A stretch of 32,130 nt of DNA from Chloroflexota bacterium (GTDB lineage Bacteria; Chloroflexota; Anaerolineae; JAAEKA01). The position numbers and the translations under genes are program-made. Shown here in pieces: positions 1 through 20,584 of the stretch. How positions within the stretch are numbered: position 1 is the stretch's first letter; each line of letters opens with the position of its first letter. The notes below the pieces were generated by a model, which was not told the origin of the DNA, made no database searches, and saw nothing but the letters and a program-made list of their open reading frames with translations. The stretch is taken from positions 1 to 32,130 of the forward strand of contig JAYELL010000081.1 of assembly GCA_034717495.1 (NCBI GenBank), given 5' to 3'.

Positions 1-359
1 TCCAGAATCTCGGCGACTTCATATTGGCGCGGCAGGCTGCCGGCGACAGGTCGGGTGCGGATTACCGGCGGGAAATAGCCCATGCGCCCGTGTAGTTCGG
101 CCAACAGCATGGCCGCGATGAAGTTCAACGATGGCAACATTACAAGGATCGGTTCGGTTTGCCACTGGCTAGAGGTTAACGGCGCCTCAAACAACATGGT
201 GTTGAGTTGCGGCTCGAAGGGCTTTTGCTCGTCAAACTGGGGCGTGATGGCAATGACTTGAGTGATGGATTCACCAGTCATGCCCTCGATCTGTTCTCGT
301 TGCGCCTGCGTTATCGGGTGAGAGAAGTTGAGTAGAATCATCGTCCATTCCGCTTTCAT
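1..359 (-). CDS. csx15: Csx15 family CRISPR-associated protein (3' end cut by window edge)
   Basis: An open frame of 119 codons runs from an ATG at 359 off the left edge without a stop. It reads MILLNFSHP near the start, then [20 protein letters not shown] and an ending close to RQYEVAEIL, the pattern I recall for Csx15. Csx15 proteins are small (about 120-130 residues) and occur only beside type III CRISPR loci; they have been proposed to be ring nucleases or binders that remove cyclic oligoadenylate. The ATG at 359 overlaps the csx1 stop as ATGA, so the two genes are translationally coupled. The family usually begins at MILLNFS, which would place the start at the second ATG (341). Placement directly behind the CARF-HEPN effector fits an off-switch role. 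Family assignment is from memory of motifs; the enzymatic role is inference. Confidence 0.82.
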
Positions 360-1573
360 CGCGACGGGAGGGGCAACGTGGCCAGGTCAGCCGGCAGCGC
401 TTCGGCCGCCTTGAGAATGCTGGCTACGGATCGAGGATCACGGCGCATGCCCACATGGGCGATGTCATTGCGCAGATCGGGCAGTTTGTTCCAGAGCGCC
501 ACGGCCTTTCCCAGCGCTTCGTCGTTGTCTGAGTCCATGCGCAATATCTTTTCCTCACGACGCAGGTGGGCCATTACGTTAAGCAGTTTCTCGGCTGCTT
601 TCCTGTCATGCAGAAGATCCCAGTCGAGCAGAAAGGTCGCGTATGAAACGATCCATTCTCGGGCCAGGACAATGGCCTGCACATATTGTCGTCTTTTGAC
701 ATACCATTCCACCAGCACCCGCTGTTTTGCCAAGCTCTCCCGAAGATTGGCGGGGTCTCTTGGATCGCCATCGAATGCCAGGGAAGTATAATCATTGGCC
801 GTCCTATCCATAAGCAGGCTAAAAGGTTTTGCCCACGTACCTGCCTCATCCTCGACCGCGGCGAGACTGGGACCCAGCGCAGCGGCTGTTTCCATTACAT
901 CTTCTGGCCGCACTAGGCGGAGGACATTGCCCATCTTATCCAGGATCCCTGCCGTAGACTTAAGATTCGTCGGGAGATCATAGGCAGTGGCACGGTTCTT
1001 ACTTTTCCAGGGAAGCTGGTGGGACTGCTGTAGCCGATGTGCCAGGGCATCGGAGTCGCCGGTGGCCAGGAATTGGTCGGTGGCAACGGTCCAGTCGAGT
1101 AGCGTCACAAAGAGCGTCAGGTCGAAGATCGGTGTTTCGTTGTCCTCTGTCCTAGCATCCCAGGCACCGTAGTAAACGGCCTTGACCGTGGCATCCTTGG
1201 CAACCTGCAGGAAGGCCAGGGCCAGGAAGCTAAGGAAGGGCAGGGAGCGAAAACCGTACGTGATATCGACGATCAACTCCTCTCCCTGACCGATATGATC
1301 GGTCAACTGGTCGAAGATTTGCCATAGGTCGGCCTCGCTGTGCCCGTCGGGGATCTCCACCGCTACCGGCTTGGTGTCCGGGGCAATTTCGTCGGCCAGG
1401 TCCTCGTAATGCCGCGCCTTCGCGGCCTGTGTTACGACGACCAGCGTATGTTCGGGTTCACAGATATGGGCAACCGCCGCTGGACAGAAGCAGGTTTCAT
1501 AGCGCTTATCAGCCAACACATAGGTGGTCTCTTTGTACGGAGTGGTTCCGAGAAACGTAAGCAAAGTGGTCAT
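356..1573 (-). CDS. csx1: CARF-HEPN ribonuclease, TM1812/Csx2 branch of Csx1
   Basis: A 405-residue protein that opens with [17 protein letters not shown], the signature of the TIGR02221/TM1812 family. The N-terminal half is a CARF (Rossmann-like) sensor domain, with the [11 protein letters not shown] motif near residue 105 that lines the ligand pocket in this family. The C-terminal helical half carries a HEPN ribonuclease motif, RNDIAH (R368, H373), preceded by helices rich in charged residues. Known members bind cyclic oligoadenylate made by Cas10 and then cut RNA nonspecifically, causing dormancy or abortive infection. The start ATG lies 1 base after the csm5 stop, with AGGTG-like complementarity upstream, and the stop overlaps csx15. 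Length is normal and both motifs are intact, so it should be active. Which ring size it senses cannot be read from sequence. Confidence 0.93.
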
Positions 1574-1574
1574 T

Positions 1575-2729
1575 TTACACCTGCTCCAGGCTTACCTTGA
1601 CCCAACCCAGGGGCCAGCCAGGTTGGTCGCCGACCCGCAAGAGGTGACGACTTTTCGGAAATGGATCCCCTGGCTTATGTTTGCCGGTTGGATTGAGATT
1701 ATAACGCGACACCAGCCGGTCGAACGCGACGGGATCTTGCTTCAGCAACTTATTGAAGGTCTTTGTGTGCCAGCCACCTCCCCAGCCAATCACTAGGAGG
1801 AATTCATTGGGTTTGAGTTCTGTAAAGAGATTAACTGTATCACCATAGAAGCGATGGACGCCAGGCACGTCACGCCGCTCCTGGAAAAAGACGATCTCCT
1901 CCTCCAGGATGGTTTTGGCATTCTGTTGACCCCAGCGGGCAAGCTGCCCTAGCCAATCAGCTCCTCGTACCCAGTGTCCAATTTCCATGCGACGTCGCCG
2001 ATCAAAGGGGGTGTTGCGATCCTCCATCAGTTCGGTGGGTATGTGGATAGGAAGCTCAAAGACTGTGCCTTTGACTACAGTCTCTACATCCACGTCAAGT
2101 CCCCGGCTGCGGCCTCGGTAGGACTGGCTTGCCGTTGGATAGATATGAGCGCGTCGCAACGCAAGTTGTTTCGGAGATAATGCAGCACTATCGCCAACCT
2201 GAAGGGCGCGGAGCAAATCCTCGTTAGGGTTCTTTCCAAAGAGCTGCTTTTCAACTGGTTGGCCGGCCCACTCGCGTTGTCGACCCAATCGGGACATGTC
2301 AGGTTCCAACTCGGCAGCAGCGCCAACGGCCAGTACCGTGCGGAGTGCGCCTTTGAGTGATGAGCCGGGTAAGTATGGACGACCGTAAATATCCTTGATC
2401 TGTTCACGGATATTCACCGTGGCCGGAGCGCCCTTTAACCGGTAGCGAAACAGAGGATGATCAGACCCGAAATCGTCGTTGGTCAGCCATTGCATCTCTT
2501 GAAGATCTGCCAGAGTGCGACCTGCCAGGGTGTGTGCCACCCGCGACATGTCCATGCCGTCATCCTCGGCGCGCTGAAAGACGGCTTCGAGCACCAGACC
2601 GCTGTCTGCAAAGTATACCCATCCGTCATCCATGGCTATCCAATCGATGTCGCGCACCAGGTTGGTCCCGGTCCCAATGTGAACGTCACTGAGCAGTTCG
2701 ACCCTTGCGGTGAGGTTTCTTGCGATCAT
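1575..2729 (-). CDS. csm5: Csm5, type III-A effector RAMP subunit
   Basis: A 384-residue RAMP-fold protein. It begins with a first RAMP strand and the LLSDVHIGTG motif, and around residues 112-125 carries YGRPYLPGSSLKGALRT, the glycine-rich PGSS-KG loop typical of Csm5. In the Csm complex, Csm5 caps the distal (crRNA 3') end of the Csm3 backbone and helps crRNA maturation by recruiting host nucleases. The start ATG overlaps the csm4 stop as ATGA at 2726-2729, indicating translational coupling, and csx1 follows after 1 base. Length and motif order match the family. No sign of damage. Identification also rests on its fixed place after csm4 in the csm2-3-4-5 order. Confidence 0.93.
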   Translation of the reverse strand: MIARNLTARVELLSDVHIGTGTNLVRDIDWIAMDDGWVYFADSGLVLEAVFQRAEDDGMDMSRVAHTLAGRTLADLQEMQWLTNDDFGSDHPLFRYRLKGAPATVNIREQIKDIYGRPYLPGSSLKGALRTVLAVGAAAELEPDMSRLGRQREWAGQPVEKQLFGKNPNEDLLRALQVGDSAALSPKQLALRRAHIYPTASQSYRGRSRGLDVDVETVVKGTVFELPIHIPTELMEDRNTPFDRRRRMEIGHWVRGADWLGQLARWGQQNAKTILEEEIVFFQERRDVPGVHRFYGDTVNLFTELKPNEFLLVIGWGGGWHTKTFNKLLKQDPVAFDRLVSRYNLNPTGKHKPGDPFPKSRHLLRVGDQPGWPLGWVKVSLEQV

Positions 2730-3883
2730 GACCGACCTCCGTCGAGTTGACGTCTCGTTTCAATTTGGTCTGAAGGCTTCATTGCAGCGTTGGCGATGCG
2801 GACTGGAAAGACAAGGCCATAACGGTAAACCGTGGGACCCTCGTTCTCGAAAAGTGTCTTCGGCGTCACGTCAACAAGGTCACCAAATGGCGTCACTGTT
2901 GACGGCCAGCGGAGTACGCTTCCGTCGGCAATCATGCGTATCGATGCCCGACGCAGATTCATGTATCCACTCAGACTCAGCCAGCCACGGCGCAGCTCAA
3001 TTTCGTAACGAGCTTCCGGACCGATCACCTCGCGTTCGTTTGGTCGAGGATGGTAAGGCGAAAAGGTGGTGAAGAAATCACCATCCGACGCACCAATCGA
3101 CCAATTCACGAAATCCTCGAAATTCGGAACAAACTGCCCGAAACCGCTGCTACGTTTTCCACCGATGCCAACCTCGCCCAACTGCTCGAATGCGCCCTTT
3201 ATTAGCGCCTGGACGGACTCGTCAGCTGCTAACCACTCGACTACCGTGTAAAGCCCGGCGGAACTGTCCTTGGTACGGTTGAAGGCTGTACCGCCCAATG
3301 CGTAAACAGCGCTCTTCAATGTCTTGCGATCGACAGTAACTCTTGGCCTCAGGTGAGTGCGCCAGAGAACGGGCGATTGTGGCTTGCCTGTCTCAGGATG
3401 GCGAGCCATAAAACTCTCCAAGCCATCCTTTTCTTTGAGGGTGAGCCAGATTTTTCCGCCATGAATTGTAGTTGGCAAATCATTCTCGAGCGCCGCGGTG
3501 GGGCTTTCATGGCGCGCTAGCGCCCGAAACACGTTTGATGAAACCCACTGAACTGCCTTGAATTGTTTGCGCCGGCGCAAATCCGTGGCATTTGGAATTC
3601 GAGGCGGGCCAACCATTGGGTAGGGTAGAAAGCTCACGTCAGCGGCGTAAGGCATCAGGGATGTCAACCTGAACGGAGCGTCGCTAGGTGTTCTGGCCCC
3701 TCTGAACTCAGCCAGCAGCTCCTCCACAATATCTGCCCCGTGTTGATCGGCCAAGACGGTGCACAAGGCCGAAAACAGACTATCTGCTGGCAACCAGACG
3801 TCGCTTCGCTCCATACCAACACCGCGCCCGCCGAAGTGAAACTGTCCACGTGGGCGAAAACGCACGCGTGTGTAGCGAGTCAT
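2726..3883 (-). CDS. csm4: Csm4, type III-A effector RAMP subunit
   Basis: A 385-residue RAMP protein. It starts with a short beta strand followed by FHFGGRG and the WLPADSLFSALC motif (residues ~30-41), the Csm4 hallmark. The C-terminal half holds a glycine-rich loop, IGGKRSSGFGQF (around residues 238-250), characteristic of Csm4/Cmr3 proteins. Csm4 binds the 5' repeat-derived tag of the crRNA and anchors Cas10 to the backbone. The ATG at 3883 follows a clear Shine-Dalgarno (TAGGAG, 6 bases upstream) and sits 9 bases after csm3. The last codons overlap csm5. Nothing unusual is visible. Confidence 0.93.
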   Translation of the reverse strand: MTRYTRVRFRPRGQFHFGGRGVGMERSDVWLPADSLFSALCTVLADQHGADIVEELLAEFRGARTPSDAPFRLTSLMPYAADVSFLPYPMVGPPRIPNATDLRRRKQFKAVQWVSSNVFRALARHESPTAALENDLPTTIHGGKIWLTLKEKDGLESFMARHPETGKPQSPVLWRTHLRPRVTVDRKTLKSAVYALGGTAFNRTKDSSAGLYTVVEWLAADESVQALIKGAFEQLGEVGIGGKRSSGFGQFVPNFEDFVNWSIGASDGDFFTTFSPYHPRPNEREVIGPEARYEIELRRGWLSLSGYMNLRRASIRMIADGSVLRWPSTVTPFGDLVDVTPKTLFENEGPTVYRYGLVFPVRIANAAMKPSDQIETRRQLDGGRS

Positions 3884-3892
3884 ATCTATCTC

Positions 3893-4720
3893 CTAATCGC
3901 CGACATCTTCAAACGTCTGCTTCACCCAATCATTGATAGTTGTTACTAGGTGATCAGTGACGGGTTGGGCCCCGTCCACCTCGAACTTTTCGGTCTTGTA
4001 TTCCGTTCCCTTTCGAGCGTAGACGTTTGTGATCTGGAACTCAACCTTTCCGCCACCTCGCGATCCCAGTCCGCCGAGATAGTCCTCTTCCACCAACTGA
4101 AGGGCTTTTAACACTGTCGCAAAGTGATCGCGTCCCGAGGCGTCGTATATCCCATAGGCCAACTCGAAACCCTCGAATAGAGTGCCGGCCGGAACTCTTT
4201 CGATCTGGCGTGGCACAGCGGCACTGGTTACCCGGTCGATGGTGGCTTCCCACTTGATCTCTGAATAAGGAAAATCGGTTTGGGCTCGGTCCAACTGGGC
4301 GGCGCTGTCGTCACCCAGGTAGACGTCGCGAACCACGAGACTGGTTGGGTGCGGAACGCCTTCGTCGCCGGTAACGCCGAAAACGGAGCAAACCGGGCAG
4401 TTGCGATACATCTCGCGGTATTCGGCATCAGACATCTTCTTTTGGCGACATATGTGTACGAAAACGCCTTTTCCGATACGCATATTCTGTTCACTTCCGT
4501 GAAGCCGTTCGGTGAGGGAACGCATTTTCCCCCGTAGACTGGAACCCGGGATGAAAGGACGATTTGTCAAAGGGTCCCGAATGATCGGCGAGTCCACTCC
4601 GCCGATTTCAAGCGCGCCTGCCGCTCCACCGATGTGAAGGCCTGTGATGGTCTTGATGTTACCCTGGAGGAATACGCGCCCGTGCAGCGTGACGCTCCTA
4701 CGGTTCTTGTTGTTTGCCAT
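3893..4720 (-). CDS. csm3: Csm3, backbone RNase subunit of the type III-A effector
   Basis: A 275-residue RAMP protein. Residues 28-33 read GLHIGG; the segment GVDSPIIRD holds the catalytic Asp (D43) that cleaves target RNA at 6-nt steps in characterised Csm3 proteins, followed by PFIPGSSLRGKMRSL. A zinc-binding set is visible (H89, C91, C108, C111). The C-terminal GGLGSRGGGKVEF loop contacts crRNA. Several copies of this protein form the helical backbone along the crRNA. The catalytic residue is kept, so RNA cleavage should be functional. The ATG has a strong Shine-Dalgarno (GGGAGG, 6 bases upstream) and lies 12 bases after csm2, consistent with one operon. Confidence 0.95.
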   Translation of the reverse strand: MANNKNRRSVTLHGRVFLQGNIKTITGLHIGGAAGALEIGGVDSPIIRDPLTNRPFIPGSSLRGKMRSLTERLHGSEQNMRIGKGVFVHICRQKKMSDAEYREMYRNCPVCSVFGVTGDEGVPHPTSLVVRDVYLGDDSAAQLDRAQTDFPYSEIKWEATIDRVTSAAVPRQIERVPAGTLFEGFELAYGIYDASGRDHFATVLKALQLVEEDYLGGLGSRGGGKVEFQITNVYARKGTEYKTEKFEVDGAQPVTDHLVTTINDWVKQTFEDVGD

Positions 4721-4732
4721 GGTTGTCCTCCC

Positions 4733-5134
4733 TTATTTGCCGCCAGCGGCAGTATGATAGGCCAAAATCGCTTCGAAAAGGTCGACGAATCTTTCGAAGC
4801 GCTGCGTTTGTTCATCAATAGCCGAAGCCTTCGATACCTCGTCGATTGCAGTCGACAACACATTGGCCAGCGGCTTAACTTTTCTGTCCCTTGCTCCCTG
4901 GTAAGCCAAGCGCGGTTTCAACAGCAGCACTTTGCGCATTCGGGTTTGCGGTTCGTCTTTTTCCCAGTTGGCTTGGATCTGGCGCACGGTGCCGAAGGCC
5001 CCTCGAATCTGGCTTTTCGACAGCCTGTCATTCGCAAGTTCACTTCCAAAGCGATCCGCTTCGCGTACAAGAATGACAGCATCGCCTTGGGCAATAATCT
5101 TGCTGATGTCTTGATCGCTTATTCTCTTTGCCAC
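4733..5134 (-). CDS. csm2: Csm2, small subunit of the type III-A effector
   Basis: A small, mostly alpha-helical, charged protein of 133 residues from the GTG chosen here. The central segment with GAFGTVRQIQANW and the LLLKPRLAYQGARD segment match Csm2, which forms the inner filament of the Csm complex and stabilises bound target RNA. A longer reading frame starts at ATG 5161, but I prefer GTG at 5134. It is preceded by an excellent Shine-Dalgarno (AAAGGAG, about 8 bases upstream) and begins 2 bases after the cas10 stop, whereas the ATG would overlap cas10 by 25 bases. Family identity comes from the motifs and from the position between cas10 and csm3. Confidence 0.9.
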   Translation of the reverse strand: MAKRISDQDISKIIAQGDAVILVREADRFGSELANDRLSKSQIRGAFGTVRQIQANWEKDEPQTRMRKVLLLKPRLAYQGARDRKVKPLANVLSTAIDEVSKASAIDEQTQRFERFVDLFEAILAYHTAAGGK

Positions 5135-5136
5135 AA

Positions 5137-7410
5137 TTACGACTCCTTTCGTGTTAACCATTGGGCCCAGCGAGCAGCCAGTCCCAATTCTTCGATATTT
5201 CCATCCAGCAAAGCGTCTTCGAGATCTTTTAGTTCCTGTTCCACTCCCTTATGAGTGCTGCGTAGTCGCGCCAGAGCGTAGGCCTGTTGCCACATCCAGG
5301 GTCCCCAAAAGACCTTGAGGATAGCCTGACCATCGGTTGATGGCCGATTTCCAAAGGCGCCCCGATTTTCTTCCTGATCGCGCCGATATCGCTGTTCAAT
5401 CGATTGCAACGTGCTGAGCAAACTGGACGGCAGGTTCTCGACTTGAAGAAGGCGAACCAGATGTTCCTGCATTTCGTCGATCTCATCGAAGTCTTGCCAG
5501 TGGTACGAACTTCCCAGGAAAGTGATAGCGTTCTTAGTAGCCAGGTGCCCCGATTGTTCGTAGTGTTTCGCTTGGTCGAGCGCCTCTTCAGCAAATTCAC
5601 TGGCGGCATAAAGCGGGAACGTACCACCTACAACCGCGATTCCAGCCGATAGATGAATGGCCCGGTGGCCGCCGACGTAATCAACGAAGTTCTCGTAAAT
5701 CGCTTGAGCAAGGGGCACGGTATGCGACCACGGACCGATCACAAAGAGGTCGTCGCCACCGGCGAAAAGCACATAGAACAGATCTTTGCCTCCATCCACC
5801 TGGCGGCAAATGTGATTCAACCATCCGGCAAAGAACCGTTCAAGAGACTGGCTCAGTTCAGCGGTTGCCATGGGTGTACGATTTGGCAATCCATTGACGA
5901 TCAGGTCACCCAAATTGTCGACATCCATTCTGAGGATGCCCAGGCGTTTCAAGCCGCCAGTGCTGGCGCCAGCCACGACATCATTTGGTTTGATCGTGCC
6001 CTCATCGGTCATTGGCGTCGTTCGGGCCACCAGAAAAAAGCCCGTTACACCCTCTTCCGGAAAACCGTCCAGATCGAGGGCATAAGTGGATTCCCCAATG
6101 TTTTTCGATTCGGTAATACGATACCACTCGCCTGAAACCGTGTGTAGTGCACGCTGCCATGCGGAAAGATTGTTTGGTCGATGCTCGTCAATTATTAGAA
6201 AGGTACTCCGACGTCCCAGTCGTGCGGCCAGGTCCTGGAAACCAGCGCATTCAGAGCACTGCACGGAAGCGGCGATAGATGGATCCTCGGGCGCATCCGG
6301 ATCCAGTGGCACAAACTGCTGGTCCGCTGGTCGTTGACGACGGCACACGGCACAGAATTCGTCCGTCTCCGAAGGTTCAGGCTCGAAAAGAGCTTTCCAG
6401 CCATCATCATCGGCCAGGGCAAGATTGCCAAAGGGTCGAACCTTGTTGGCTGCCACGGCATCCTTTACGCGTCCCTCATAGACCTGCCAGAGCGATTTCG
6501 GAGGTCGGTCATCCTGGGCGGTCGGTGTTTGGTGGAATCGAATTGCTTCCACCGGGAGTTCAGTACTCCCGAGAGCCACCGAAAGATCTCCGTGGAAACC
6601 GTCAAAGAGATCTTCGCCTTGGTCGATGCCTTGCAACAAAACGAGGTTGATCACGGAAGCGATCTCTTCGACTTTCTCCGGCAAATCATCCTGCCATCCA
6701 GTCAGTAGTACAAAATTACCCCCGGCATCATACACAACGTTTGCAGGCCCCAATTCAAGGTCGGCCACCAGTCGTCGAACCAGGGCGTTTCCGAGGAGCT
6801 GAATAAACGCAGATCTACCGCGCATTGCCTTGGCCGCTCCCTTGGATGTAACCAGGTTGATCGTCTTTTGGATGCCGGGAATGTCGCCGCTGATCAATCC
6901 CAGCCTTTCAGGCGTTGTAGCTGTAGTTCCACTGATTTGTGCCAGGGCAGTTACCATCTTCCACTGCTCAAAAAGAGAGACACCGCGTTCACCATATGAA
7001 TTGGGCAGAGTACTCGCGTACTTGCGCATCAGGTGGAAAAATCGTTCGAAATCCTGTTCGGTTGCGCCTCCGGCCTCGAGGAACAGATCATACAAGCCCG
7101 TTTGGTCAGTTTGGATCGCCGCTGCTCGATCAACCGGCATGAGACACCAGGTTTCTGGGTCACCACCCTCCATTGCAAGACTTAGGGGTACGGGTCTAAG
7201 GTATTTTGGTAGCGCAGTTTCGCCATCAACCTCGATCCTGGTGAAGATCGATTGTAACGGTTCCTCCAAAGCCCCATTAGACCGATCAGGGTTGAGTAGG
7301 TCCAGAAACCCTTCTGTCCAGCCTGGCACTGCTGGATTGCCGCCGCCTGTTGCCCGTGCCACTAGAATACGGCCGTATTCGATAAGTCGGTTCACGTCAT
7401 TTTCGTTCAC
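5137..7410 (-). CDS. cas10: Cas10/Csm1 with active cyclase motif and degenerate HD region
   Basis: A 757-residue large subunit of the type III-A complex. Palm 1 includes GDIPGIQKTINLVTSKGAAKAMRGRS (from about residue 175). A zinc ribbon has Cys 353/356 and 385/388. Palm 2 starts with RMDVDNLG (about 494) and carries the GGDD cyclase motif at 551-554, so synthesis of cyclic oligoadenylates from ATP on target RNA binding is expected. The N-terminus is unusual. The stretch before EEPLQSIF is only about 48 residues, and neither the usual HD pair nor the SLYDH motif is intact (SLFEQW at 145-150), so the ssDNase is probably lost. Start is GTG with GAGG about 8 bases upstream. The csm2 start lies 2 bases beyond the stop. 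Confidence 0.95.
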   Translation of the reverse strand: MNENDVNRLIEYGRILVARATGGGNPAVPGWTEGFLDLLNPDRSNGALEEPLQSIFTRIEVDGETALPKYLRPVPLSLAMEGGDPETWCLMPVDRAAAIQTDQTGLYDLFLEAGGATEQDFERFFHLMRKYASTLPNSYGERGVSLFEQWKMVTALAQISGTTATTPERLGLISGDIPGIQKTINLVTSKGAAKAMRGRSAFIQLLGNALVRRLVADLELGPANVVYDAGGNFVLLTGWQDDLPEKVEEIASVINLVLLQGIDQGEDLFDGFHGDLSVALGSTELPVEAIRFHQTPTAQDDRPPKSLWQVYEGRVKDAVAANKVRPFGNLALADDDGWKALFEPEPSETDEFCAVCRRQRPADQQFVPLDPDAPEDPSIAASVQCSECAGFQDLAARLGRRSTFLIIDEHRPNNLSAWQRALHTVSGEWYRITESKNIGESTYALDLDGFPEEGVTGFFLVARTTPMTDEGTIKPNDVVAGASTGGLKRLGILRMDVDNLGDLIVNGLPNRTPMATAELSQSLERFFAGWLNHICRQVDGGKDLFYVLFAGGDDLFVIGPWSHTVPLAQAIYENFVDYVGGHRAIHLSAGIAVVGGTFPLYAASEFAEEALDQAKHYEQSGHLATKNAITFLGSSYHWQDFDEIDEMQEHLVRLLQVENLPSSLLSTLQSIEQRYRRDQEENRGAFGNRPSTDGQAILKVFWGPWMWQQAYALARLRSTHKGVEQELKDLEDALLDGNIEELGLAARWAQWLTRKES

Positions 7411-7547
7411 ATTGCATACCTCGCTTTCTGCAGATCAATGGTGCACTATTATCGACACCCCGAAGCCTGGCTCGGCATGGTCTCCAAAGAGTGACCCGCG
7501 CTCGCTCTGCGCGTCCTCCCAGCCAGCCGGGCCTCAGGGCTATACAC

Positions 7548-7576
7548 AGTCTATCAGAGATTTCAGATCCTGTCAT
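7548..7576 (-). promoter_or_regulatory. Candidate promoter for cas10-csm operon
   Basis: On the minus strand, ATGACA (7576-7571) and TAGACT (7553-7548) are separated by 17 bp, a fair match to a housekeeping promoter. It lies in the 178-bp gap between the CARF-HTH gene and cas10. A perfect 12-bp palindrome, GGAACCGGTTCC at 7578-7589, abuts the upstream side of the -35 box, where an activator would sit. Moderate to low confidence: the -10 box matches only four of six positions. Confidence 0.35.
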
Positions 7577-7577
7577 G

Positions 7578-7589
7578 GGAACCGGTTCC
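7578..7589. promoter_or_regulatory. 12-bp perfect palindrome upstream of cas10
   Basis: GGAACCGGTTCC reads the same on both strands. It begins at the last base of the CARF-HTH stop codon and ends one base from the candidate -35 box of the cas10 operon. It differs from the 24-bp palindrome at 8507-8530, so the same protein need not bind both. It may be an operator, or chance in GC-rich DNA. Confidence 0.3.
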
Positions 7590-8467
7590 TAATTGCAATC
7601 GTCTTCCAAGGCGAAACAGGTCCCCAGCTCGGCGGCCAGCACGGCCCGATCGGTGGGCACGTCATCCCGGTAGCCCAGAAACTCGTGCAACTTGGCGTAG
7701 ACCGACGTCAACTGGTTGGCGATGGTCTTGGGACTCTTGTGCATCTCGGCAGCCAGAAGATCGTTGTCCTTGCCCGATGTGGCCGCTAAGCGCGCCACAG
7801 CACGTTCGGCCGGCGTCAGCACCTGGTTTACGAAGACACGCCTGGCCGCCAGATCGCCGCGCAGGTGATGCTCCTGCTGGAAAGCGATGGCGTCCCAGGG
7901 ATCGTCGAAGGCGCCCAGAGAAGTGGCGGCCGGCGAAACACTGCTCCAGCGCAAGACCGGTATCTCCAACAAGGTAGCATCGTCTCCCGGCTGCAGCGTC
8001 ATGCGACCTGAAGCGCGCATGGCGTCACTCGATAGCAGGTACCAGACTTTATCCCCTTCTTCGAAGAGCAGTTGTGCAACCACCAGGGCGTAGATGCTCA
8101 TCGATTTTCGCCCGCCCGATAGATTCAGGTCCACCTGCACACCCGCCTGCTTGAGCTGCAACACCGTGCGGTAGAGCGCCCGCAGAAAGGCCGCAGCCTC
8201 ACTGGCCGTGCTGAGGTCGTCGATTGCCAGGCCCGAATCGTCCTTTACCGTGACAAAACCCGCTGCCGGTCGGGCCCGGCGCGACAGCTCCAACTTCAGG
8301 CTTTCCAGGGATGAAAAAATCGGTTCATGATCGGGATTGGTGTGAATCACAATCAGCTCGTCGACCCATCGGCCCTGGCCGCGAAGCAAATCCAAGCTTA
8401 GCGTCACGACCTGTGGCTGGGCGCCCAGCGTACAGATCAAGGCGGATTTGGCACTGCTCTGCTTCAC
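7589..8467 (-). CDS. CARF-LuxR-type HTH protein, candidate cyclic-oligoadenylate-responsive regulator of the csm locus
   Basis: A 292-residue protein from the GTG at 8467. Residues 8-25 (SALICTLGAQPQVVTLSL) and the SGGRKSM motif at 117-123 match CARF/ring-nuclease-type domains of the NE0113 (TIGR02584) kind; SGGRK lies where the cyclic oligoadenylate pocket forms. Residues 217-265, from LTPAERAVARLAA to VYAKLHEFLG, form a LuxR/GerE-type helix-turn-helix. The likely job is to sense the Cas10 second messenger and adjust transcription, and perhaps to degrade the messenger. It lies just upstream of cas10 on the same strand. The frame stays open to an ATG at 8602, but I prefer the GTG: the CARF domain starts there, and the extra 45 residues would be coded across the 24-bp palindrome. 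Domain calls are from motifs; function is inference. Confidence 0.82.
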   Translation of the reverse strand: MKQSSAKSALICTLGAQPQVVTLSLDLLRGQGRWVDELIVIHTNPDHEPIFSSLESLKLELSRRARPAAGFVTVKDDSGLAIDDLSTASEAAAFLRALYRTVLQLKQAGVQVDLNLSGGRKSMSIYALVVAQLLFEEGDKVWYLLSSDAMRASGRMTLQPGDDATLLEIPVLRWSSVSPAATSLGAFDDPWDAIAFQQEHHLRGDLAARRVFVNQVLTPAERAVARLAATSGKDNDLLAAEMHKSPKTIANQLTSVYAKLHEFLGYRDDVPTDRAVLAAELGTCFALEDDCN

Positions 8468-8506
8468 GCCCGTCTCGCTTTCCAATCGCGGTGAACTTCG
8501 GATACC

Positions 8507-8530
8507 GTATGGCTCGAATTCGAGCCATAC
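8507..8530. promoter_or_regulatory. Perfect 24-bp palindrome, candidate operator of the CARF-HTH regulator
   Basis: The half-site GTATGGCTCGAA (8507-8518) is followed directly by its exact reverse complement (8519-8530). It has no central loop, so it suits a DNA site for a symmetric dimer better than an RNA hairpin or terminator. It lies 40 bp upstream of the preferred GTG start of the CARF-LuxR HTH gene; LuxR-family boxes are also palindromes of about 20 bp. A perfect 24-bp palindrome is very unlikely by chance at a given place. Autoregulation is inference. Confidence 0.6.
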
Positions 8531-8844
8531 CAATGATCGACATCCTTGTGCGCGCTTGTGATGCAATGCATGACCACCCATGGGGAACTGTGGCCCCCGC
8601 AACGAATGGCGAAGAAGGTCATTTTATCCCGCGCCTTGAGTATAGCATTTTTCTGTTGAGGATTATATGATCTATATCAGGTTTGGGGACAAAAAGCGAT
8701 TACAGTTTGTTCATGACTGATGTTGCGCAGGTAACCTATGCTCGGAAGACGGCGGGCAGAAGACGACGGACGGCCGACGGCGGTCTGCGGTCCCCGGTCG
8801 GCGGTCGACAGTCAGCGGTCGGCGGTCAGCGAATCCTGTTTCGT
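8531..8844. other. Intergenic stretch between CARF-HTH gene and aldo/keto reductase
   Basis: No convincing gene is seen. On the minus strand two -10-like hexamers occur, TATACT (8644-8639) and TATAAT (8667-8662), within an AT-rich patch at 8641-8680. Either could start the CARF-HTH transcript, but no good -35 box pairs with them. The part nearest the reductase (about 8743-8831) is a GC-rich degenerate repeat, listed separately. Confidence 0.5.
8743..8831. repeat. Degenerate GC-rich intergenic repeat (AGACGG/CGGTC type)
   Basis: This stretch is built from short near-copies of words such as GACGGCGGTC, CGGTCGGCGG and AGAAGACG. The same words (AGAAGACCGC, GACGGCGGTCAG) make up the regular 42-bp tandem repeat at the right edge of the window, so both belong to one repeat family of this genome. 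It lies just beyond the 3' end of the reductase gene. No coding or RNA function is evident. Confidence 0.6.
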
Positions 8845-16756: not shown

Positions 16757-18145
16757 TTGCAAAACATTAGAGATTCTCTGCAAGCCATTGTAGCTCGGGA
16801 TGCGATCTCAGGCAAAGAGCCTGGCACCGCCGCCCGGGCAAAAACAGGTGCTTCACAAAAACGGATCAGCTGGCGGGCCATATTCGGTCTCGGCCTCATC
16901 TTCCTCATCATGGTTGTCCTCTTACAGGCCGATTGGCGCCCCCGGCGTTCGCCCCTCGACCGCGGCATCGATGCCCTGACCGACGGGCAACGATTCGACC
17001 TCGTCCGGTGGGAAGCCGAGGCAATCTCAGGCAAATTGACCAGCGTGTTTCGTAATTCAAACGAAGCACTAACTGAAGAAGAAGAACGCGCCCTGGTACG
17101 AGGCTATCTGGTCGACGCGCGGCGAATCGGCCAACTGGAAGATGCGATCGACGAGATTCTCAGTGATCCCCAGGGTGTCGATCCAATAGCAGCAACCGAG
17201 CAAGCCCGCGCTGAAGTTGCCGAACTTCGGGAACGCCTCGAGGAAAGAGCGACTGAGGTTGAGACGATTCTTGAGACGCAACTGGCCCGCGAGATAAGAG
17301 CCCTGGGCTTGACCACCGTCGGCACCGGTTGGCCACCTCCCAAGCTGAGCTTCACCGAGCCACCCAAGCTATTGGTTCTATCCCCCCGGGATCGCATTGA
17401 GCGAATCCGCTCAGTGGATCTGGTTTCCGACCTCGATAACACCGATCGGGAGACGCTGGAACAGGCGGTTGCTGAACAGTTTGACATGGTTGCCTATGTC
17501 ACCGGCATCGGCGGCTATGGCGCATGGCCTGCCATGATCGTAAACCGATTCGGTCTTCCCTGGACCACGGAGACTATCGCCCACGAGTGGGTGCACAATT
17601 ACCTTGCCTTTCATCCCCTGGGATGGTCCTTCCTGCAGGGTGGCGATGCGGTCACCATGAATGAGACAGTCGCCAGCATCGTGGGCGAGGAGTTGGGACT
17701 CGCGGTCATCGAAACCAATTATCCTGAACTCCTGCCTCCTCCACCTGTACCATCCGGTGAAGTGCCCGACCCGCAGGACGGGACAGAACCGGACGAGTTC
17801 GACTTTCGGCAGGAAATGAGGGCAACACGCCTGGTAGTCGATGAATTTTTGGCCCAGGGTCTCGTGGAGGAAGCGGAAGCCTTTATGGAGGCCAGGCGCC
17901 TGACTTTCGTCGAACATGGATACCCCTTGCGGGTACTGAACCAGGCATACTTTGCTTTCCACGGCAGCTACGGCACGAGTCCCGCGGCCACTGATCCCAT
18001 CGGCCCGAAGATGGAACGTCTTCGGCAGTTGAGTCCGTCGTTGCAGGCCTTTCTGCGCCTGGTGGACGGCCTGGTGGATCTGGAAGACCTGGACGCGGCC
18101 CTGGAGCGATTGGAGGGAACGGCCGGTGAGGATTCGGGAGCATGA
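16757..18145 (+). CDS. Membrane-anchored HExxH protein, putative metallopeptidase
   Basis: A 462-residue protein of no family I can name. Residues 41-58 form a single hydrophobic segment after a basic N-terminus, so it is an inner-membrane anchor with the bulk outside. Residues 100-180 are charged and probably coiled-coil. Residues 272-283 read ETIAHEWVHNYLAF, a zincin HExxH motif (H276, E277, H280); MNETVASIVGEELG (E303) could supply the third zinc ligand. The fold suggests a zinc peptidase, but activity is inferred. The start is uncertain: a TTG at 16757 is the first usable codon, only 25 bases from the divergent thioesterase start, with GGA about 9 bases upstream. The stop overlaps sfsA by 4 bases. 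Confidence 0.7.
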   Translation: MQNIRDSLQAIVARDAISGKEPGTAARAKTGASQKRISWRAIFGLGLIFLIMVVLLQADWRPRRSPLDRGIDALTDGQRFDLVRWEAEAISGKLTSVFRNSNEALTEEEERALVRGYLVDARRIGQLEDAIDEILSDPQGVDPIAATEQARAEVAELRERLEERATEVETILETQLAREIRALGLTTVGTGWPPPKLSFTEPPKLLVLSPRDRIERIRSVDLVSDLDNTDRETLEQAVAEQFDMVAYVTGIGGYGAWPAMIVNRFGLPWTTETIAHEWVHNYLAFHPLGWSFLQGGDAVTMNETVASIVGEELGLAVIETNYPELLPPPPVPSGEVPDPQDGTEPDEFDFRQEMRATRLVVDEFLAQGLVEEAEAFMEARRLTFVEHGYPLRVLNQAYFAFHGSYGTSPAATDPIGPKMERLRQLSPSLQAFLRLVDGLVDLEDLDAALERLEGTAGEDSGA

Positions 18146-18840
18146 GATGGCACTCGCCGCTGGTGCCGGGCAGATTCATCGCAAGAGACAACCGCTTCCG
18201 CGCTTCAGCATGCCTGGAGGATGGCCGAACCGTGTCAGTACACGTTGCCAATTCCGGCCGACTCAGTGAGCTTTTCAGGCCCGATACACCTGTCTGGATC
18301 CGGCCTGCTTCAGCCGCTCACCAGAGAAAGACCTGGGGCGATCTTACGTTGGTCGAATATGAGAACACGCTGGTTGCGGTGGACGCGCGGCTGCCCAACC
18401 ACCTGGTAGCGGAAGCGCTGCGAGCGGGGAAACTGCGGGGATTTTCCGTACCGACAGCGATTCAATCTGAGGTCACGGCCGGTCGAAGCCGATTGGATTT
18501 CCTGCTGACCTTTGACGAAAACAAGGCCTGCTGGATGGAGACCAAATCGGTAACCCTGGTGCAGCAGGGAACGGCGCTTTTCCCCGACGCGCCTACCGAA
18601 CGCGGCGTGCGACATCTGAGAAAATTGTTGTCGCTTCACCGGCAAGGCAATCGAACTGCGGTGGTGTTTGTCGTTCAGCGCGAAGATGCACAGACGTTTT
18701 CCTGCCATCCCACTGCTCACCCAACCTTCACGTCGACGCTGAGGGAGGTCGCAAGTCAGGGCGTGGGGGTCTACGCCTGCCGGTGCAAGGTCACGCTGCG
18801 GGGAAGCGAGATCAGCGGGTCGTTGCCCGTAGTGCTCTAA
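18142..18840 (+). CDS. sfsA: SfsA, DNA/RNA nuclease family protein
   Basis: A 232-residue protein with the SfsA layout: PGRFIARDNRF near the N-terminus, VHVANSGRLSELFRP (about 34-48), LVAVDARLPNHLVAEAL, then the nuclease-like core RSRLDFLLTFDE, CWMETKSVTLV and ALFPDAPTERGVRHLRKL. The Asp-Glu-Lys set (DFLL and E-x-K) resembles a PD-(D/E)XK-type active site. SfsA was named for an effect on maltose gene expression in E. coli and has later been described as a nuclease; its cellular role is not settled. ATG overlaps the upstream stop as ATGA (18142-18145), so it is co-translated with the HExxH protein. Confidence 0.92.
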   Translation: MRWHSPLVPGRFIARDNRFRASACLEDGRTVSVHVANSGRLSELFRPDTPVWIRPASAAHQRKTWGDLTLVEYENTLVAVDARLPNHLVAEALRAGKLRGFSVPTAIQSEVTAGRSRLDFLLTFDENKACWMETKSVTLVQQGTALFPDAPTERGVRHLRKLLSLHRQGNRTAVVFVVQREDAQTFSCHPTAHPTFTSTLREVASQGVGVYACRCKVTLRGSEISGSLPVVL

Positions 18841-18852
18841 TTTCAACCGGAC

Positions 18853-18881
18853 TTGACAGAAGTTCTCTTTCGTGGGATAAT
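18853..18881 (+). promoter_or_regulatory. Near-consensus promoter of a compact small-ORF unit
   Basis: TTGACA (18853-18858), 17-bp spacer, GATAAT (18876-18881): a perfect -35 and five of six in the -10. It lies 12 bases after the sfsA stop. Predicted start is near 18888, about 55 nt before the small ORF. Confidence 0.8.
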
Positions 18882-18929
18882 AGTGCTGTGCTGGTACAAA
18901 CCAGCCCCCAAAATCGCTATCCTTATCAT

Positions 18930-19009
18930 AGGAGGTGATGCTAATGATTGAAAGTCGTAAGCAAAGCGCCGTAGCATCACCTCTGTTTTCACAGTAGATG
19001 CTACGGCGC
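18930..19009 (+). promoter_or_regulatory. Competing hairpins that can hide a perfect Shine-Dalgarno
   Basis: Three segments can pair in mutually exclusive ways. Segment 1, GAGGTGATGCTA (18932-18943), includes the ribosome site; segment 2, TAGCATCACCTC (18972-18983), is its exact complement over 12 bases. Segment 2 also overlaps GCGCCGTAGCATC (18966-18978), which pairs perfectly over 13 bases with GATGCTACGGCGC (18997-19009), with a further CTGT/ACAG pair inside. Pairing 1-2 would block translation; pairing 2-3 would free it. Segment 2 also copies the 16S anti-Shine-Dalgarno word ATCACCTC. The pairings are read directly; the switch is inference. Confidence 0.6.
18944..18997 (+). CDS. 17-residue small ORF with perfect Shine-Dalgarno
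   Basis: ATG at 18944 opens a 17-codon frame (MIESRKQSAVASPLFSQ) ending in TAG at 18997. The ribosome site AGGAGGTGAT (18930-18939) matches 10 contiguous bases of the 16S 3' end with a 4-base gap to the ATG; an in-frame ATG at 18938 overlaps the site. A strong promoter lies upstream and a strong terminator downstream, so it is an independent gene of about 170 nt. The peptide has no membrane segment and I do not recognise it. It may be a leader peptide whose translation sets the RNA fold, a small protein, or incidental to a non-coding RNA. Confidence 0.45.
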   Translation: MIESRKQSAVASPLFSQ

Positions 19010-19016
19010 GAAAAGC

Positions 19017-19051
19017 AAAGAGGCTGCCTTCGGGCAGCCTCTTTGTGTTTT
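19017..19051. terminator. Bidirectional rho-independent terminator
   Basis: A perfect 12-bp stem AAAGAGGCTGCC/GGCAGCCTCTTT (19017-19028, 19033-19044) closes on a stable TTCG loop. On the plus strand it is followed by GTGTTTT; on the minus strand by GCTTTTC. It ends the small-ORF unit and probably also the HNH gene that stops at 19070. Confidence 0.92.
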
Positions 19052-19069: not shown

Positions 19070-19582
19070 CTATTTTCCGGCAACGTAGAGATACTTGTTC
19101 CAAACCTCCCGCTGACCTATCTCTCCCAGCATGGCCATGGCCACATAGCGGGGGCGATACGGCTTTCTGCGGAGCGCCATGCGCGCCTCCCTGGGCGTGC
19201 GATTCCCCTTGCGCTGGTTGCACGGGCGGCAAGCCACAGCCACATTCTCCCACTCGGTCCGGCCTCCCCTGCTACGCGGCATAACATGATCGATGGTTAG
19301 ATCGCCCCGGCCCGGCGTTGCGCCACAATATTGGCAGGTGTATTGATCACGTGCCAGGATAGTGCGCCGGGACAGTGGCAAGGTCAACCGGCGCGGGATG
19401 CGCACGTAGTATACCATTCGGATGACCAACGGCACGGGCAGTGACAGTTTTTCGGCGCGCAACCGGGCTTCCGCTGCCTCCAGCAGTTCCGCTTTCTCCT
19501 TGAGCAGTAACACAATAGCCCGTCTGATTGACACGACACTCAAGGGCTCATAGGTCGCATTCAGCACCAATACCGATTTCAT
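19070..19582 (-). CDS. HNH endonuclease family protein
   Basis: A 170-residue protein starting MKSVLVLNATYEPLSVVSIRRAI. The C-terminal half has a zinc-stabilised HNH motif: CQYCG, then LTIDHVMPRSRGG (catalytic His in DH), WENVAVACRPCNQRKGNRTP. This standalone family is widespread in free-living bacteria, including Chloroflexi, cyanobacteria and actinobacteria, usually outside mobile elements; its role is not established. I chose the ATG at 19582, because the frame upstream reads as noise and the family starts with this motif; GGGAGG lies about 11 bases before it. It is followed by a bidirectional terminator and sits downstream of the tRNA cluster on the same strand. Confidence 0.85.
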   Translation of the reverse strand: MKSVLVLNATYEPLSVVSIRRAIVLLLKEKAELLEAAEARLRAEKLSLPVPLVIRMVYYVRIPRRLTLPLSRRTILARDQYTCQYCGATPGRGDLTIDHVMPRSRGGRTEWENVAVACRPCNQRKGNRTPREARMALRRKPYRPRYVAMAMLGEIGQREVWNKYLYVAGK

Positions 19583-19681
19583 GCAGTCAATGGCCTCCCG
19601 TTCCCTGTGCCCACCACAGGGTTGCCGGAACGAAAAAGGCGCCCAGAATCGGATCGAAGCTGGGCGCGTCGCGAATGGCTG

Positions 19682-19758
19682 TGGGGTGACCAACGGGGCT
19701 TGAACCCGCAACCTCCTGGGCCACAACCAGGTGCTCTGCCGTTTGAGCTATGGTCACC
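19682..19758 (-). tRNA. tRNA-His (GTG)
   Basis: On the minus strand, GGTGACCA pairs with TGGTCACC in an 8-bp acceptor including the extra G(-1):C73 pair specific to tRNA-His. The anticodon loop TTGTGGC has GTG at 34-36. The T-arm has GGTTCAAGCC. CCA is encoded (19684-19682), unlike in the neighbouring tRNA genes. Confidence 0.95.
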
Positions 19759-19807
19759 ATAATACTGTATACAAGACCATCAACCGGTGCGATACCGCCG
19801 ATGAGAG

Positions 19808-19878
19808 CTCGGGGACGTGGATTCGAACCACGATTAGAGGATTCAAAGTCCCCGGTCCTGCCATTGGACGATCCCCGA
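19808..19878 (-). tRNA. tRNA-Gln (TTG)
   Basis: Acceptor TCGGGGA/TCCCCGA, T-arm GTGGTTCGAATCCAC, and anticodon loop CTTTGAA with TTG at 34-36. The discriminator is G and CCA is not encoded. Confidence 0.94.
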
Positions 19879-20004
19879 AGGATCCGTTCAGAGAAGCCGG
19901 CAGTACGAATCCCGTAAACTGGCCAACTCCCTAAGCTGTGTTCGGGCCTATTATACGCGAAAGAGCTATTTCGTCAAGAAGAAAGCAACAAACATCGGTA
20001 ATTC

Positions 20005-20047
20005 TAACTCCCCTCCCCGATTCGGGAAGGGGCCGAGGGTGGAGTTA
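20005..20047. repeat. 43-bp imperfect inverted repeat between tRNA genes
   Basis: TAACTCC (20005-20011) and GGAGTTA (20041-20047) are exact inverted ends. Between them CCCTCCCCGATTCGGGAAGGGG folds back. Similar CCCCTCCC-ATTCGGG-AGGGG elements are common intergenic hairpins in some bacterial genomes; this one separates tRNA-Phe from tRNA-Gln. Confidence 0.55.
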
Positions 20048-20133
20048 TGAGAGTCACCAGGGTGGGGGGATTATTCCGGGAAGGGATACTCTGGTCGCCG
20101 ATTGAGAAACGTTACCCTTTGTCAAAAAAAAGG

Positions 20134-20206
20134 TGCCGAGACCCAGACTTGAACTGGGGACAACTTGATTTTCAGTCAAGTGCTCTACCAACTGAGCTAT
20201 CTCGGC
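20134..20206 (-). tRNA. tRNA-Phe (GAA)
   Basis: Acceptor GCCGAGA/TCTCGGC with discriminator A, D-arm TAGCTCAGTTGGTAGAGCA, anticodon loop CTGAAAA with GAA. The genomic sequence continues CCT, so the terminal A of CCA must be added after transcription. Confidence 0.96.
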
Positions 20207-20273
20207 ACAAGAACGAAAAATGGCTAACGGCAAATGGCGAGTTGTCGCAATCTGCCATCAACCATCATGTTCC

Positions 20274-20347
<74 letters not shown>

Positions 20348-20406
20348 ATGGGTTATGGTTATCGATCCGCTGTGAAACCAGATGCTCTGAACACCTGATC
20401 CTGCAG

Positions 20407-20479
<73 letters not shown>

Positions 20480-20501
20480 ATGCACACTGCTCGGGCGGAG
20501 G

Positions 20502-20584
20502 TGCCGACGAGAGGACTCGAACCTCCACGCCCAAAGGGCAACAGATCCTAAGTCTGTAGCGTCTGCCAATTCCGCCACGTCGGC
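20502..20584 (-). tRNA. tRNA-Leu (TAG)
   Basis: An 83-nt type II tRNA. Acceptor GCCGACG/CGTCGGC, D-arm TGGCGGAATTGGCAGACGC typical of Leu, anticodon loop CTTAGGA with TAG, and a long variable arm (TGCCCTTTGGGCGT). Discriminator A; CCA not encoded. It is the first tRNA after rnpB in the direction of transcription. Confidence 0.95.

Follow-up and report, generated by a model that had tools for sequence, protein, structure and literature searches.

Between sfsA (18142-18840, plus strand) and a convergent HNH endonuclease gene assigned by Pfam (19070-19726, minus strand), a Chloroflexota genome of the class Anaerolineae carries a complete small transcription unit. The question raised by this locus is what is achieved by an RNA of about 160 bases whose encoded peptide measures 15-20 amino acids across homologs and whose ribosome-binding site can pair with two other parts of the same molecule. 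The unit lies within the 32,130-nucleotide stretch of contig JAYELL010000081.1 analysed here, referred to as the window. A preliminary description, made from the sequence alone, had proposed a promoter, a 10-base ribosome site, a 17-codon ORF, stems of 12 and 13 bp that share one arm, and a UUCG-capped terminator, and each of these elements matches the sequence base for base at the position given for it.

All parts of the unit are read from the plus strand. The promoter, TTGACA-N17-GATAAT (18853-18881), consists of TTGACA at 18853-18858, a 17-nucleotide spacer and GATAAT at 18876-18881; the window holds a single instance of this exact pattern, and 100 shuffles yielded none. Next come two parts that the preliminary description did not contain: a 5' hairpin, GCUGGU-ACAA-ACCAGC (18890-18905), whose sequence is variable among species and which is missing in some, and a second SD-pairing arm upstream of the Shine-Dalgarno sequence (SD). 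This arm, the 5' strand of stem P1, AUCGCUAUCCU (18913-18923), is a bulged anti-SD with a nearly invariant core, GCYAUC, in which the Y (C or U) faces a G. The extended SD itself, AGGAGGTGAT = AGGAGGUGAU, spans 10 nucleotides (18930-18939), is near-invariant in 92 homologs and is perfectly complementary to the 3' end of the 16S rRNA of the same genome, ...GGATCACCTCCTTTCT. The SD-side strand of stem P2, termed arm a, occupies 18932-18943, and the 17-codon ORF, MIESRKQSAVASPLFSQ, runs from an ATG at 18944 to a TAG at 18995-18997 (18944-18997 overall). Inside the ORF lie the 5' strand of stem P3 (18966-18978) and the 3' strand of P2, an anti-SD (18972-18983), with a 7-nucleotide overlap that constitutes arm b. 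P2 joins 18932-18943 to 18972-18983 over 12 bp, and P3 joins 18966-18978 over 13 bp to its 3' strand, arm c, directly after the stop codon (18997-19009). In the predicted fold P3 is capped by a small hairpin, P4 (CUGU-UUUC-ACAG, 18983-18994), and P4-like hairpins were found in many homologs when the alignment was inspected by eye. The unit ends in an intrinsic terminator (19017-19044) with a 12-bp stem, a UUCG loop and then a U-rich tract. The folding energy of the window RNA is -82.5 kcal/mol (z = -9.6), and 0 of 200 shuffles folded as well; the minimum-energy fold contains P2 if the post-stop arm is removed and P3 if it is present. Elsewhere in the window, a type III CRISPR-Cas-like cluster occupies 356-8602 on the minus strand, with Cas10/Csm1 palm and Csm1_B domains at 5137-7410, Cas_NE0113 at 7589-8602, and ORFs between and beside these genes that resemble additional subunits; directly past the HNH gene, six consecutive tRNA genes (19685-20584) lie on the minus strand.

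The element is present once in its own genome by BLASTN, and the search of relatives that the preliminary description had suggested gave matches in 31 of 100 genomes at E <= 0.001, the own genome counted; one of these matches, L024, is only a similar terminator and was set aside. A covariance model (R1) detected the element in 241 of 396 Anaerolineae species, with one match each among the genomes listed. A second model (R2) gave weak single matches in other classes, which on reading had the same anatomy in a different sequence, and a third (R3), built from these matches, recovered it from 132 of the 150 genomes searched in the class that contains genome G542, taken to be Chloroflexia, and from 89 of 93 high-quality genomes of that presumed class. 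Exceptions to the one-copy rule are a few Chloroflexia genomes (G666, G786 and G828), each with two full copies. Applied to 400 genomes of the phylum, R3 added further families such as f65 and f80 through weak matches, and it gave 0 matches in two other phyla, with 119 and 118 genomes searched (237 in total). A scan of 84,980 genomes for an exact 18-mer taken from the Anaerolineae form gave 27 stretches, of which 21 are true homologs, all in records named Anaerolineae, Anaerolineales, Anaerolinea, Caldilineae or Chloroflexi/Chloroflexota; the remaining six failed to match the model. One weak match outside the phylum, in a Desulfarculaceae genome (L201), proved unlike the element on inspection. 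Diverged loci include a very short form with a weak P3 in a Herpetosiphon-like family (L168-L170 and L175; f81), which in L170 has a 23S rRNA gene a few hundred bases away, and two weak model matches in another family (L179 and L194; f126) that have an SD, an ATG and an MDHSS- or MDYRS-like start with no clear P2 or P3, and are possibly a third, diverged form.

Promoter-like sites lie upstream of 78 of 92 homologs (11 of 92 when shuffled) and terminator-like sites follow all 92 (36 of 92 when shuffled), so that promoter and terminator are conserved together with the gene. Genomic context is the same within families and different between families, the pattern of a vertically inherited gene. With one copy per genome in nearly all matches and a family-specific context, a mobile repeat, which the preliminary description had considered in decayed form, is ruled out. 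In Rfam 15, no family scored above its gathering threshold for the window or for 18 related loci, with sub-threshold matches only, and a known RNA family is excluded on this ground. The Chloroflexi-1 motif (Rfam; Weinberg et al. 2010, PMC2864571), reported from Chloroflexus aggregans, is likewise a structured RNA candidate from a Chloroflexota bacterium, but the element has no Rfam match to it. No paper on such an RNA in Chloroflexota was found in the part of the literature covered. The element is a gene for which we found neither an Rfam family nor a description, and it is single-copy in most species of two classes.

The two stems that share arm b are conserved in different ways. Among 92 Anaerolineae copies, P3 consists of 99.8% standard pairs, with double-sided changes in 9 of 10 pairs; double-changed cells number 117 against 23.6 in shuffles (0 of 500 as many) in an alignment that was fitted to the P3 model, and an independent MAFFT alignment of 29 copies gave the same P3 result. 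The compensatory changes that the preliminary description had named as a check are therefore present in P3. In 18 Chloroflexia copies, aligned independently, P3 has 93.9% standard pairs, double-sided changes in 5 of 10 pairs, and 16 double-changed cells against 5.2 in shuffles (0 of 500). By the standard of comparative sequence analysis, P3 is proven by covariation. P2 is paired at 97.6% in the 92 Anaerolineae, where, with the SD side fixed, most of the variation consists of G-U pairs; in the 18 Chloroflexia it is 96.8% paired with one-sided changes only. Arm b varies in Chloroflexia mostly in ways that keep its pairing with the fixed SD arm (G-U), and arm c follows arm b, the pattern expected when one arm has to pair with two others. 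P1 has invariant core columns in Anaerolineae and a wobble position that is C in 49 copies and U in 42; its covariation is slight, so the argument for P1 is one of conservation. Between the two classes, nearly all of the stem sequence has thus been replaced while the architecture was kept. One divergent copy (L113, 1794-1904, in G052) has a P3 replaced by unrelated yet paired sequence and a different peptide, MDYSSMCNPMTQHHFRCVC.

The preliminary description had also proposed that the shared arm mimics the 16S anti-SD. This holds for the window copy and is not kept in Chloroflexia, in which the partner of the arm is the 3' part of the SD together with the start codon rather than the GGAGG core; the resemblance to 16S arises because the arm pairs with the SD. 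An origin from the 16S 3' end, suggested by a likeness in the window copy between arm b plus AAGUCGUAAGCAA and the 16S 3' minor domain, is ruled out: homologs do not share the likeness, and Chloroflexia have lost the anti-SD core.

The frame of the ORF is conserved as well. An ORF of 15-20 codons stands behind the SD in 91 of 92 Anaerolineae copies, beginning with ATG in 88 and GTG in 3, and the frame is broken in a single copy (L081). The distance from the start codon to P3 is 19, 22, 25 or 28 nucleotides in all 91 intact ORFs, always 1 modulo 3, and all insertions and deletions are therefore multiples of three; in 11 Chloroflexia this distance is 17, 20 or 23, again in one frame. The end of the stop codon lies -5 to +11 nucleotides from arm c in Anaerolineae homologs. 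Homologs without conserved stems or ORF, which would have told against the preliminary description, are thus not what the comparison returned. Substitutions in codons before P3 are synonymous in 33% of cases against 22% expected, counted over non-independent pairs, an indication of weak purifying selection on codons and of weak constraint on the peptide. Serine is the commonest residue and is encoded by AGU in 79% of cases, compared with 13% in the genes of the window, which suggests an RNA-level preference either for an A/U-rich loop or for the AGU codon itself. In the ORF loop (18944-18965) and its homologous loops, a UAGUAGUA-like stretch places stop codons in another frame. The encoded peptides are polar, most of them with a positive charge, and a serine-rich MDSS/SKR start recurs in both classes; for 91 of them the median GRAVY is -0.15 and the longest hydrophobic run is 3-4 residues in most.

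In secondary-structure predictions, which ignore pseudoknots, the median probability that the SD is open in Anaerolineae rises from 1.9e-8 without arm c to 3.0e-5 with it, or, when the 5' arm is omitted, from 5e-8 to 1.8e-2. In Chloroflexia the corresponding values are 2.5e-6 and 0.17, for 11 of 18 sequences, the search pattern having missed arm c in the others. Arm c is thus predicted to make the SD 10^3 to 10^5 times more open, and the real arm outdoes a shuffled one in 90 of 91 cases. The full-length Anaerolineae RNA, 5' arm included, is still mostly closed in prediction (3e-5), and some Chloroflexia RNAs close again when the terminator is included. As arm c opens the SD in these predictions and shuffled versions do not, arm c would act as a de-repressor that is present only after the whole ORF has been transcribed.

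The reading that we favor, with about even confidence, is that the element is an autonomous gene whose RNA is translated and bistable, a locked mini-mRNA that unlocks upon completion. During transcription, the weak upstream arm (P1) would cover the SD first, followed by the strong ORF arm (P2), so that the nascent RNA would be untranslatable. When the polymerase reaches the post-stop arm, this arm would pair with the ORF arm to form P3, P2 would open, and the finished, terminated RNA would become open to translation, although P1 would continue to dampen it in Anaerolineae. A ribosome on the ORF would have to open P3, and on arriving at the stop codon it would cover arm c, with arm b by then already released. 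P2 could then re-form behind the terminating ribosome and stop further initiation; we infer this relocking, and with it self-limiting translation, from the constant placement of the stop codon beside arm c. The product would be the serine-rich, mostly positive peptide of 15-20 residues or, just as possibly, translation as such.

This logic resembles that proposed for the metastable SD-sequestering hairpins of the Helicobacter AapA3/IsoA3 type I toxin mRNA (eLife 2019, PMC6733600). AapA3-type mRNAs are likewise small and stand-alone, hide the SD by hairpins of which one lies inside the ORF, and block premature translation co-transcriptionally, as predicted here; the element shares SD sequestration by alternative structure, with P2 conserved and the SD predicted closed before arm c. 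Unlike these toxins, it encodes a polar, serine-rich peptide with no hydrophobic run longer than 5, and most species of two classes have it, in one copy per genome. Judged by GRAVY and hydrophobic runs, the 91 peptides do not appear to be of the small hydrophobic or membrane-active kind expected of a type I toxin, and no antitoxin RNA family in Rfam 15 reached its cut-off.

Among the alternatives, the one that survives best, rather unlikely as we judge it, is that the RNA is directed at the ribosome, binding or reporting free ribosomes, with a peptide that hardly matters; it could, for example, serve 30S subunit loading or return to its locked state every time it has been translated. The elements kept across species are nearly all ribosome-facing, namely the extended SD, the start codon, the frame and the stop, and the ribosome may for that reason be the ligand. 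The near-invariance of the SD and its perfect match to the cell's own 16S, the free turnover of stem sequences with pairing kept, the weak amino-acid constraint and the position of the stop codon beside arm c all accord with this reading. The recurrence of the serine-rich start across two classes speaks against it, and the peptide may instead have a role of its own.

A second alternative is a lock in the form of an H-type pseudoknot, in which P2 and P3 form together and hide the SD in the finished RNA until a protein, the ribosome or temperature opens both helices. The order of the arms (a, P3 5' strand, P2 3' strand, c) makes the two helices cross, and a trimmed P2 could stand alongside P3. 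The preliminary description had called the stems mutually exclusive, which agrees with the 7-nucleotide overlap in the window copy but is not universal: the overlap has a median of 5 nucleotides in 91 Anaerolineae and is absent in 16 of them, many from one family. Species without overlap could form both helices at once, and we therefore rank the pseudoknot as a serious rival. There is also a precedent in the timP mRNA (RyfA) of the timPR system, in which exclusive conformations of a small mRNA set SD access, a pseudoknot is possible and pseudoknots can control such mRNAs (PMC11228461). That pseudoknot, however, is the active form, and TimP is an enterobacterial membrane toxin with an antitoxin sRNA (PMC11228461), to which no Rfam match relates the element. 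Against a lock by both full helices stands their overlap, with the Anaerolineae median given above and 6-11 nucleotides in most Chloroflexia examined (in many 10-11 of 10-13), which excludes their coexistence at full length; we consider the pseudoknot lock unlikely.

Less probable still is a dual-function base-pairing sRNA of the SgrS or SR1 type, which would pair with mRNAs in trans and also encode a peptide. SgrS, SR1 and VcdRP (PMC4021124, PMC8501984, PMC8672173) are, like the element, structured RNAs with their own promoter and terminator and a short ORF, and the size and autonomy of the element (promoter 78/92, terminator 92/92, frame 91/92) conform to such a design, as does an arm b that is anti-SD-like in Anaerolineae. 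Unlike those sRNAs, however, the element has a conserved SD switch, and no conserved trans-pairing seed was identified in it. Among candidate pairing regions, GCYAUC and the AGU-rich loop are conserved, and the stem arms vary by compensation; that arms b and c change so freely means that they are unconstrained by outside targets, and the 16S-like core is lost in Chloroflexia.

In translational attenuators of the ermC type, a short ORF encodes a leader peptide and alternative stems have arms in and after it. The element shares the short ORF and stems with arms within and past it; unlike these attenuators, it hides the SD of the short ORF itself and controls no downstream gene. That it is nevertheless a cis-acting leader or attenuator, as the succession of a leader-peptide-like ORF, alternative stems and a terminator might suggest, is very improbable and is contradicted by genomic context. 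The preliminary description had argued this from the opposite strand of the next gene, in the window the convergent HNH gene; the 122 nearest downstream genes sort into 69 clusters, with 59 in the same orientation as the element and 63 in the opposite one, with no conserved co-directional gene among them, and a unit whose neighbors vary so freely is an autonomous gene.

A single-copy RNA gene kept across two classes of a deep bacterial phylum, with a covariation-backed switch architecture and a conserved frame, points to a basic function that has been missed. As a tentative proposal in which we place little confidence, it may represent an RNA gene class new to description and ancestral to much of Chloroflexota, which would unlock when complete, be translated once or a few times and relock behind the terminating ribosome, so that the count of translation events, and not the peptide, would be the signal. 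The Chloroflexia include cultured genera, and expression, translation and deletion are therefore directly testable. The element is also a case in which evolution has preserved a translation switch although almost none of its stem sequence was retained.
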